NCBI GenBank assembly: GCA_001776785.1
Contig: MFDF01000004.1
Coordinates: forward strand, 9,339 to 44,835
Direction of reading: 5' to 3'
DNA length: 35,497 nucleotides
DNA from: Candidatus Daviesbacteria bacterium RIFCSPHIGHO2_12_FULL_37_16
GTDB taxonomy: Bacteria > Patescibacteriota > Microgenomatia > Daviesbacterales > UBA10151
The stretch's first letter is position 1, and the number at the start of each line of letters is the position of its first letter. The translations under genes and the position numbers were made by a program. The notes beneath the pieces were generated by a model. That model was not told the origin of the DNA. It did no database searches and was given only the letters and a program-made list of their open reading frames with translations. This document shows, one piece after another, positions 20,453 to 22,997 of this stretch.

Positions 20453-21168
20453 CATGTTACTCCACTCATTACTGAGGGCATGGACTATATCTTCATCCTA
20501 TAAATAGGAGTTGGCATATAATGAAAGTTTAATTCTGGATTATCCAGTACCTTCCATATAAGTCTCTACAGGTGATGAATTCAGAAAGACTCTGAATAAC
20601 TCAGACTGTCTGAGTATCAGAGGACCGGAAAGTTCCTCCAGATTGCCAATGACTGCATAGAGAGTTAATTCTTTTTGACAAAACTTTATATTTATCTGCT
20701 AATCTTTTAGCCTCAAAAGATAAGTTTGGTTGAACAATTGCAATCATCCTAAGATGAGTTATTACCTCATCACTAGAACCTATTGCAATCTTTAAGAATC
20801 TTTTAAACTCTTTTTCTGAGGATCGTTTTGCAAATCCTTCAGCTATATTTGCAGCTATTGATTTACCAGCTCGTCTAACCTGAAGTACCAAATCATATTC
20901 TGATTTAGCCAATCTTCTAGATAGACTATAAATTTCTGGTAATAATCTTAAAGCTTCTTGGTAAACTTCTAAGTCAGAAACGTCTTTGATCATAATTTAA
21001 TATTATCAGATCTTCTGATATTCTGAATATCTGGTTTACCGAGTCTTTCCGAGTTATTCTGAAAACACCTTCCCTCGATATTACCCATAAAATATGGGTT
21101 TCATCGATATTAGCCAATTTTTTCTATGTTTTTACAAACATAGGTCGCATCTTGTGCAGATTGCACTG
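20453..21168 (-). ncRNA. Group I intron in 16S at U1498/A1499, with ORF
   Basis: 716 bp between AAGTCGT and AACAAGGTA. The exon ends in U and the intron ends in G (complement of base 20453). The guide GCGAC (21144-21148) pairs with exon GTCGT with a U-G wobble at the splice site. The P7 strands are AGAGACTTATATGG (about 20554-20567) and AAGATATAGTCC (20482-20493). It encodes a four-helix S23/IVP protein rather than a homing endonuclease. It interrupts the 1492R priming site. Confidence 0.9.
20601..20993 (-). CDS. Four-helix-bundle S23/IVP protein encoded in a 16S group I intron
   Basis: 130 residues of the 23S intervening-sequence protein family (four-helix bundle). The start DVSDLEVYQEALRL, the middle QVRRAGKSIAANIAEGF and the end LRMIAIVQPNL..EAKRLADKY are characteristic. 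Members are usually encoded in intervening sequences of 23S genes, where their role is unclear; RNA or ribosome binding has been suggested. Here the gene lies inside a group I intron of 16S, where a homing endonuclease would be expected. It may act as a maturase-like or stabilising factor (inference). The last 15 or so residues run into the ribozyme core upstream of P7, so this tail is probably constrained by the RNA. Confidence 0.88.
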   Translation of the reverse strand: MIKDVSDLEVYQEALRLLPEIYSLSRRLAKSEYDLVLQVRRAGKSIAANIAEGFAKRSSEKEFKRFLKIAIGSSDEVITHLRMIAIVQPNLSFEAKRLADKYKVLSKRINSLCSHWQSGGTFRSSDTQTV

Positions 21169-21254
21169 ACGACTTAAGCCTCATCGCTGGTTTCACCTTC
21201 TACCCCTGTAGGGATATTCGGGTGCCCCCAACTTTGCTGCCTTGACGGGCGGTG

Positions 21255-22087
21255 ATCGGGATAAGAAACCTTTCCCTCCCCACTATACGTGCGCTTCTAA
21301 CGCATATAGCGAGTCTTCATGCTTTAAAGCCTTTCTTAAAGAACGGATTTCTTCAATCCCTTCTTCGGTAATATGCTTTTTCAAATCCATCATATCTGCT
21401 ACTTTGCAGAATATTTCAAATTGAAATCTTTTCTTAGCTAGAGGAGGATATTTTTTAAAGAAAGGTATTACTTTTTCTTTAATATCCTTGAATGAACCTA
21501 CTTGATATTTTACATGCGGTCTCCATTTTTTATACCGTTCATATTCTAAACGATAAATGGAACCACAATCTAAAGTTTTTTGAATCTCTTTCAAGATTAG
21601 TTCATCATCTTCTCTAAGTTCAATCTCAAATTTAAGCCGTACTTCTGGTACTCTGAATCGTCTTTTAGAAATGGTTATTGAAAAACAACCCTCTCCATCA
21701 ACAAATCCAGTAACATAATGTGGATTTAACATAAAGTTCATCCCTTCGGTAATTATTTGGGCTATCTATACTTTATTAAGTTTAGATAAACTTGTCAATT
21801 ACCTACTATGGACTCAGCTGACTTCCTAAGGCCTATTATTGTTCTGATGCCTTAGGATCTCCCTGGGTCATTTAAAAAACTGTTTCCGACATTCCTTGCG
21901 ACTTATTTTTTGTAACTTCTCTATCGTACACTGATAGATCGTCACAGTCTTTTTGCAAAGGCTGCCTTTTGTATATGGGACCCTTCAGACATTCTGTTAC
22001 CAGAGATGTCCTGTCCGCAACTATGCCACTTTCGTGGCAGATGGATTTACACCACCTAGTTTATTAAACTGCCAGGCGCATTTATTT
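21255..22087 (-). ncRNA. Group II intron in 16S at A1396/C1397, with LAGLIDADG ORF
   Basis: 833 bp between CTTGTACA and CACCGCCC. The 3' end carries domain V (about 21314-21278). It has a CGC triad pairing with GTG, the stem CTATA/TATAG, the two-base CG bulge, and the upper stem TGCG/CGCA. Domain VI follows as GGGA-AAG..CTT-A-TCCC. The bulged A is eight bases from the 3' end, and the intron ends GAT, so AY. The 5' end has six extra bases (AAATAA) before ATGCG, the likely counterpart of GUGYG. Domain I-like hairpins follow. LAGLIDADG-bearing group II introns with 5' additions are known from fungal mitochondrial rRNA genes. Confidence 0.82.
21283..21741 (-). CDS. LAGLIDADG homing endonuclease within a group II intron
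   Basis: 152 residues with one LAGLIDADG-type motif (YVTGFVDGEGCFSI, residues 9-22; the acidic catalytic residue is in GFVDGEG), so it should act as a homodimer. LKEIQKTLDCGSIY and KIDI-like strand patterns fit the family's single-motif members. It would cut intronless 16S alleles at the A1396/C1397 site to drive homing. The last codons (DSLYALEAHV-stop) are the same bases that form domain V of the ribozyme, so protein and RNA are locked together at the 3' end. No reverse transcriptase is present, unlike normal mobile group II introns. Confidence 0.9.
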   Translation of the reverse strand: MNFMLNPHYVTGFVDGEGCFSITISKRRFRVPEVRLKFEIELREDDELILKEIQKTLDCGSIYRLEYERYKKWRPHVKYQVGSFKDIKEKVIPFFKKYPPLAKKRFQFEIFCKVADMMDLKKHITEEGIEEIRSLRKALKHEDSLYALEAHV

Positions 22088-22997
22088 TGTACAAGAGGCG
22101 AGAACGTATTCACCGCGACCTGCTGATTCGCGATTACTAGCAATTCCGACTTCATGGGGGCGAATTGCAGCCCCCAATCTGAACTGAGGCGAAATTTCAG
22201 AGATTTGCTTCCTGTTACCAGGTTGCAGCTCGTTGTTTTTCGCCATTGTAGGGTGTTTGTAGCCCAGGGTGTAAGAGCCGTGCTGACTTGACGTCATCCG
22301 CTCCTTCCTTCCTAAAAATTAGGACTGTCCCGTATGAACTATTTAACATACGGCGCGGGTTTCGTTCGTTTGCCCACTTAAGGGGACAGCTCACGCCACG
22401 AACTTACGACAGCCATGCAGCATCTGTGTAGAACCCTCGAAGGAGGCCTACTTTCATAGGCTTAGCATCTACATGTCAAACCCTGGTGAGGTTTTTCGCT
22501 TTGTATCGAATTAAACAACACGCTCCACTGCTTGTGCGCCTCCCCGTCAATTCCTTTGAGTTTTAATCTTGCGATCGTACTCCCCAGGCGGGATGCTTAA
22601 CGGGTTACCTTGCGTCACCCAAAAAAATCGGGTAACTAGCATCCATCGTTTACGGCTTGGACTACGCAGGTCTCTAATCTGCTTCGCTCCCCAAGCTTTC
22701 GTGCCTCAGCGTCATGGGTTTCCCAGGTACCTGCCTACGCCTTTGGTGTTCCAGATCATATCAACGCATTTCACTGCTACACGATCTGTTCCAGTACCCT
22801 CTTAAACCATCAAGTTTACTCATTTCTTGCCCGAAACTATGGTTAGGCCATAGCCTTTCAAACAAGATGCAGTAAACCGCCTACGCAACACTTTACGCCC
22901 AATGAATCCGGATAACGCTTGCACCCTACGTATTACCGAGGCTTCTGGCACGTAGTTAGCAGGTGCTTATTCGCAAGGTACCGTCATAATCTTCCCT

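Follow-up and report, generated by a model that had tools for sequence, protein, structure and literature searches.

A LAGLIDADG-encoding group II intron in the 16S rRNA gene of a CPR bacterium, with a reading frame that extends into domain V

The window analysed here, a 35,497-nt stretch of DNA from Candidatus Daviesbacteria bacterium RIFCSPHIGHO2_12_FULL_37_16, contains a 16S rRNA gene interrupted by a group II intron that encodes a LAGLIDADG homing endonuclease (LHE). The observation of such an intron in a CPR 16S gene is real, and the endonuclease reading frame continues into domain V of the ribozyme. Our main reading, to which we assign a probability of roughly 0.85, is that the intron is a CPR member of the LHE-encoding group II family at 16S site 1396, and that its reading frame has run into domain V by core creep. 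Overall, the overlap of frame and domain V recurs among related introns, and the peptide encoded there is not conserved.

From what is known of the family, the RNA would fold and remove itself from the 16S precursor by splicing. The endonuclease would cut 16S genes that lack the intron, and repair would then copy the intron in. The reading frame runs into domain V until it reaches a stop codon made by domain V's own base pairs, and translating ribosomes and folding of the ribozyme would be expected to exclude one another.

Anatomy and identification of the intron

The 16S gene lies on the minus strand between 23411 and about 20410, and two inserts interrupt it. For the insert under study, the 5' exon (...CTTGTACA) extends up to 22088 and the 3' exon (CACCGCCC) begins at 21254, and the exons around it are continuous as in E. 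coli 16S. This continuity, the EBS1/IBS1 complementarity and homology to related introns suggest that the intron is spliced at this junction. The coordinates and anatomy given in the initial annotation were correct (Table 1). Domain V at 21313-21279 has the CGC triad and two-nucleotide bulge described there; A21262, the bulged A of domain VI, indeed lies 8 nt from the 3' end; the intron ends in ..GAT, in agreement with the terminal AT; and the six extra bases before the GUGYG-like 5' end are a real and conserved linker, after which the window intron reads AUGCG, compared with GUGYG. The loop GUGUAC, the complement of the exon end GUACA, was taken as EBS1. Placement in subclass IIC is presumptive and follows Liu 2026 (PMC13190283).

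Table 1. Features of the intron and its reading frame, in window coordinates
Feature	Position	Strand	Remarks
Group II intron	21255..22087	-	833 nt; within the 16S rRNA gene at E. coli 1396/1397
IBS1 (GUACA), final bases of the 5' exon	22088..22092	-	complementary to the EBS1 loop
5' linker AAATAA before AUGCGCC (GUGYG-like)	22082..22087	-	AAATAA or AATTAA in most relatives of type 1, L061 of Thiotrichaceae among them
EBS1 hairpin CUAUC-AGUGUAC-GAUAG	21921..21937	-	EBS1 = GUGUAC at 21931-21926
Domain III region	21741..21854	-	Rfam group-II-D1D4-1, 34.3 bits vs gathering 35
LAGLIDADG_1 homing endonuclease ORF	21283..21741	-	152 aa, single motif (GFVDGEG); start codon predicted
Domain IV stem, 5' strand CUUUAUG	21730..21736	-	holds an in-frame AUG
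Domain IV stem, 3' strand CAUGAAG	21315..21321	-	codes the C-terminus just before domain V
Domain V, catalytic hairpin	21279..21313	-	includes the nine final sense codons of the ORF and its stop
Domain VI	21258..21276	-	bulged branch-point A at 21262

The initial annotation had proposed a covariance check with Rfam. At the gathering threshold, no group II intron was detected at 21255-22087. With relaxed thresholds there were group II matches, each of them under its gathering score: RF01998 (domain III/IV) reached 34.3 of 35, RF00029 (domain V/VI) 29.7 of 40, and RF02003, a weak match near the 5' end, 22.7 of 49. Because every match fell below the gathering score, comparison with relatives was needed to identify the intron.

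We collected relatives in two ways. A scan for the 5'-junction pattern in an 84,980-species genome collection gave 37 loci, nearly all of them in CPR. A covariance model of domain V, domain VI and the 3' exon gave matches in 28 of the 380 genomes of a phylum sample and in 37 of the 374 of a class sample; most matches are flanked by the 3' exon, with the 16S setting not confirmed for every weak one. The introns were then divided into types, which are our own labels based on domain V sequence and the 3' end, and a few members are borderline. Several types share the 16S site, and the window intron belongs to type 1.

In an alignment of 17 relatives, 97.4% of the cells in the helices of domains V and VI were paired, compared with 29-48% when the helices were slid along the alignment, and 10 pairs had changed on both sides. 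None of 500 shuffles matched the observed paired percentage and covariation score. For domain V alone, 98.3% of the cells were paired and four pairs had changed on both sides; domain VI contributed six covarying pairs, and its bulged A is an invariant column. The EBS1 loop GUGUAC is near-universal in type-1 introns and sits on a covarying stem (0 of 2000 shuffles). The covariation, EBS1 and the D1D4 and gpII matches from Rfam uphold the original call of a group II intron.

Two rival explanations concern the identity and state of the insert. That a group I intron was misread as group II is suggested by the company it keeps, since LAGLIDADG ORFs are usually found in group I introns and the neighbouring insert of the 16S gene, like the insert in the window's 23S gene, is group I. 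However, Intron_gpI gave no match inside 21255-22087 even at E values up to 10, the group I matches falling in the next insert, and domains V and VI covary; we rejected this explanation and regard its chance as negligible. Alternatively, the insert could be dead, either as an intron that no longer splices or as part of a 16S pseudogene. We consider this very improbable: the flanking exons follow the E. coli arrangement, compensatory changes keep domains V and VI paired, the LAGLIDADG motif and the ORF are intact, and the genome holds one copy of the intron.

The rRNA genes of the window have other features of note. The second 16S insert (21168-20453, minus strand; E. coli 1498) is a group I intron, matched by RF00028 in its 3' part (29 bits); it codes for a 23S_rRNA_IVP protein (20601-20993; PF05635, 1.7e-23) and not for a homing endonuclease. 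The 23S gene contains a group I intron at 586-226 on the minus strand (RF00028, 55.5 bits). The rRNA genes are also split (2777-23411): some 15 kb with protein genes on either strand lie between the 16S gene with tRNA-Ile and tRNA-Ala with the 23S gene.

The reading frame in domains IV and V

The ORF product is a LAGLIDADG protein and not a reverse transcriptase (RT), as had been proposed: a Pfam search gave LAGLIDADG_1 (E 5.8e-24) as the sole domain and found no RT or maturase. I-OnuI-type PDB structures matched the product at 4e-41, with matches ending at about residue 136-141. The AlphaFold model has a pLDDT of 88.8, and past residue 140 the values fall from 93 to 64 and 43. The predicted fold thus ends near residue 140, and both the PDB match ends and the modelled tail suggest that the tail would be dispensable for the endonuclease. 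Upstream of the ORF, a GAAGGG motif closes the domain III region and, judging from its spacing, is a possible Shine-Dalgarno sequence.

The ORF takes up the whole of domain IV, whose stem is therefore built from the opening and closing codons of the frame. Among the relatives, the strands of this stem are mostly both coding. The segment that follows domain III pairs with the one that precedes domain V; the mean duplex energy was -13.5 kcal/mol, compared with -6.7 kcal/mol when the 3' strand was shuffled, and in each of three types none of 5000 partner permutations was as good. In 25 of 43 introns the 5' strand contains an AUG in frame, typically some 9 nt past the GAAGG motif.

Beyond the stem, the frame enters domain V and stops at TAG (21285-21283) in its 3' strand. 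An overlap that includes the stop had been noted correctly; counted from the first pair (C21313), it comprises nine sense codons rather than the ten first given, a number that depends on where the base of the hairpin is drawn. The stop itself arises by a compensatory change in the base pairs of domain V: where relatives have CUGGA/UCCAG, the window intron has CUAUA/UAUAG. One sequence is therefore both catalytic core and C-terminal coding sequence in its geometry, as the initial annotation had it, but the peptide is not conserved as protein. The initial annotation had suggested checking whether the C-terminal overlap is conserved; among the relatives, frames and stops vary, and introns without an ORF have the same codons.

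How widespread is the overlap? Among 48 related introns with intact ORFs, the frame enters domain V or passes beyond it in 30. The remaining 18 have no domain V overlap: the distance from stop to domain V is 2-3 nt in 15 of them, 7 nt in two and 26 nt in one. Mapped on the protein tree, the overlap state has switched 10 times or more and the frame 6 times or more, and all three frames are used among the overlapping introns. A 39-nt indel distinguishes the window intron from a relative (L002) and accounts for the stop of L002 lying before domain V; in another relative, L042, the stop lies in domain VI. The two usable RT-type comparator introns have their stops 2 and 13 nt before domain V, so ending near domain V is not in itself unusual; the unusual feature is reading through it. 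In four introns (L010, L107, L077 and L078), the endonuclease frame is still open at the 3' splice site and carries on in the 16S exon. A Berkelbacteria intron (L059:1333-1450, minus strand) has an insertion at the base of domain V.

Because the overlap recurs, the peptide is unconserved and the fold ends near residue 140, we read the tail as the product of passive core creep. On the comparative data, the overlap is thus a recurrent passive phenomenon and not a conserved dual-function tail, and the residues coded by domain V are most likely a by-product. Two explanations that give the overlap a function have to be weighed against this. The tail (DSLDALDAHVQWG in type 1) might be a functional part of the protein, for example by contacting the intron in the manner of a maturase. 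The tail does have the same frame and peptide in type-1 introns of Gottesmanbacteria, Kazan, Saccharibacteria and Berkelbacteria, with a close variant in Levybacteria. Nevertheless, the frame-2 peptide of type 1, DSLDALDAHVQW, is identical in introns that have no ORF or an ORF that stops earlier, so the open frame in type 1 follows from the RNA sequence. Other intron types use other frames or stop earlier, and AlphaFold confidence in the tail is low. A conserved functional tail was rejected on these grounds, and we consider a role of the tail in the protein unlikely.

The overlap could also be a selected switch, in which pairing of the start and end of the ORF and a frame through domain V would make translation and splicing exclusive and so time endonuclease synthesis. 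The covarying domain IV stem with its in-frame AUGs is consistent with this, as are the recurrence of the overlap in many lineages and the precedent of the T4 td intron, in which translation of I-TevI is sequestered and splicing is impaired when ribosomes occupy the core (PMC3073962). On the other hand, the 18 introns that avoid domain V, the unconserved frame and stop position, and the fact that a domain IV stem is expected for the ribozyme anyway all speak against selection, and we hold a selected switch to be possible and clearly less probable than passive creep. With similar reserve, we offer the tentative wider idea that in the 16S introns of CPR, endonuclease genes have repeatedly been fused with a group II ribozyme, the ends of the ORF building domain IV and the frame crossing domain V; a ribosome would then have to melt the active site, and the RNA would make a timed choice between message and ribozyme. 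The natural series of introns with a stop before, inside or after domain V would make the conflict between translation and splicing testable.

Hosts and spread of the relatives

The type-1 relative L061 comes from Thiotrichaceae, and its 16S sequence is gammaproteobacterial (86.5% identity to E. coli over 318 nt). It shares the site, linker and EBS1 with the window intron, and 2 nt separate the stop of its ORF from domain V. In the protein tree, one supported group unites the LHEs of types 1, 2 and 4 with that of L061. Another locus, L099, has a type-1 ribozyme together with an endonuclease that belongs to the other main protein clade, which looks like a swap of modules at a single insertion site. 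A Methylobacter host was rejected for the locus filed under that name (L038): its 16S is CPR-like, with about 80% identity to CPR and 72.6% to E. coli, and the contig is probably mis-binned.

RF00029 was rejected as a census tool, being over its cut-off in 0 of 59 genomes, and the Rfam gathering threshold misses most of these introns. An RT or maturase domain was over its cut-off in 0 of 145 CPR genomes. In one CPR genome (L125), a weak maturase match adjoins a group II domain V that scores well (55 bits), a possible rare RT-type intron in CPR. Because the CPR sample is almost without RT/maturase group II introns, DNA-level homing is the likely mode for the CPR introns, as Tsurumaki 2024 proposed (PMC11270868).

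Relation to known systems

LHE-encoding group II introns at the 16S 1396 site are an already known class, including in CPR, and the idea of a missing bacterial counterpart to the fungal introns is not supported, such introns having been described both in CPR (PMC11270868) and in Thiotrichaceae (PMC13190283). In the parts of Tsurumaki 2024 that cover them (PMC11270868), 53 group II-like inserts at 16S position ~1400 in CPR are described from Rfam matches at E 1e-5, and 39 encode LAGLIDADG proteins. These 16IS9 inserts share with the window intron the CPR host, the position, the group II features, and a LAGLIDADG_1 ORF with no RT; the ORF/domain V overlap and the domain IV stem are shown here, and we found no discussion of them in those parts of that paper. 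The rns-1396 group IIC-LHE family of Liu 2026 (PMC13190283, which cites Salman 2012) is likewise inserted after 16S 1396, with a single-motif LHE in domain IV and a 5' linker in all members. The bacterial hosts listed there are four Thiotrichaceae genera only. Beyond that description, the window ORF overlaps domain V as well as domain IV. The CPR introns are here linked with rns-1396, which the 2026 survey treated as the sole bacterial family.

Fungal mitochondrial introns also combine a group II ribozyme with an LHE in rRNA genes, some with 5' additions (Toor and Zimmerly 2002 and Mullineux 2010, as reviewed in PMC4424553 and PMC13190283). They are mostly IIB1, mostly have double-motif LHEs and lie at other sites, whereas the window LHE has a single motif. 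In the fungal introns a 5' addition often goes together with a missing branch A; the window intron retains this A.

In the papers searched, we found no earlier group II report of a repeated overlap between ORF and domain V or of a domain IV stem with coding strands, although a mention in Salman 2012, Mullineux 2010 or Toor 2002 is possible. The closest precedent is the core creep of group I introns reviewed by Edgell 2011 (PMC3073962), in which variable extensions were predicted and considered probably dispensable. As in T4 td with I-TevI, the homing endonuclease ORF of the window intron extends into the ribozyme core. That review described core creep with group I examples and placed the coding sequences of bacterial group II proteins wholly inside loops; the window intron, by contrast, is group II. 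Its relatives show the variable extensions that were predicted. Core creep, proposed for group I in 2011, would thus have occurred many times independently in group II introns, where it reaches the most conserved catalytic element.
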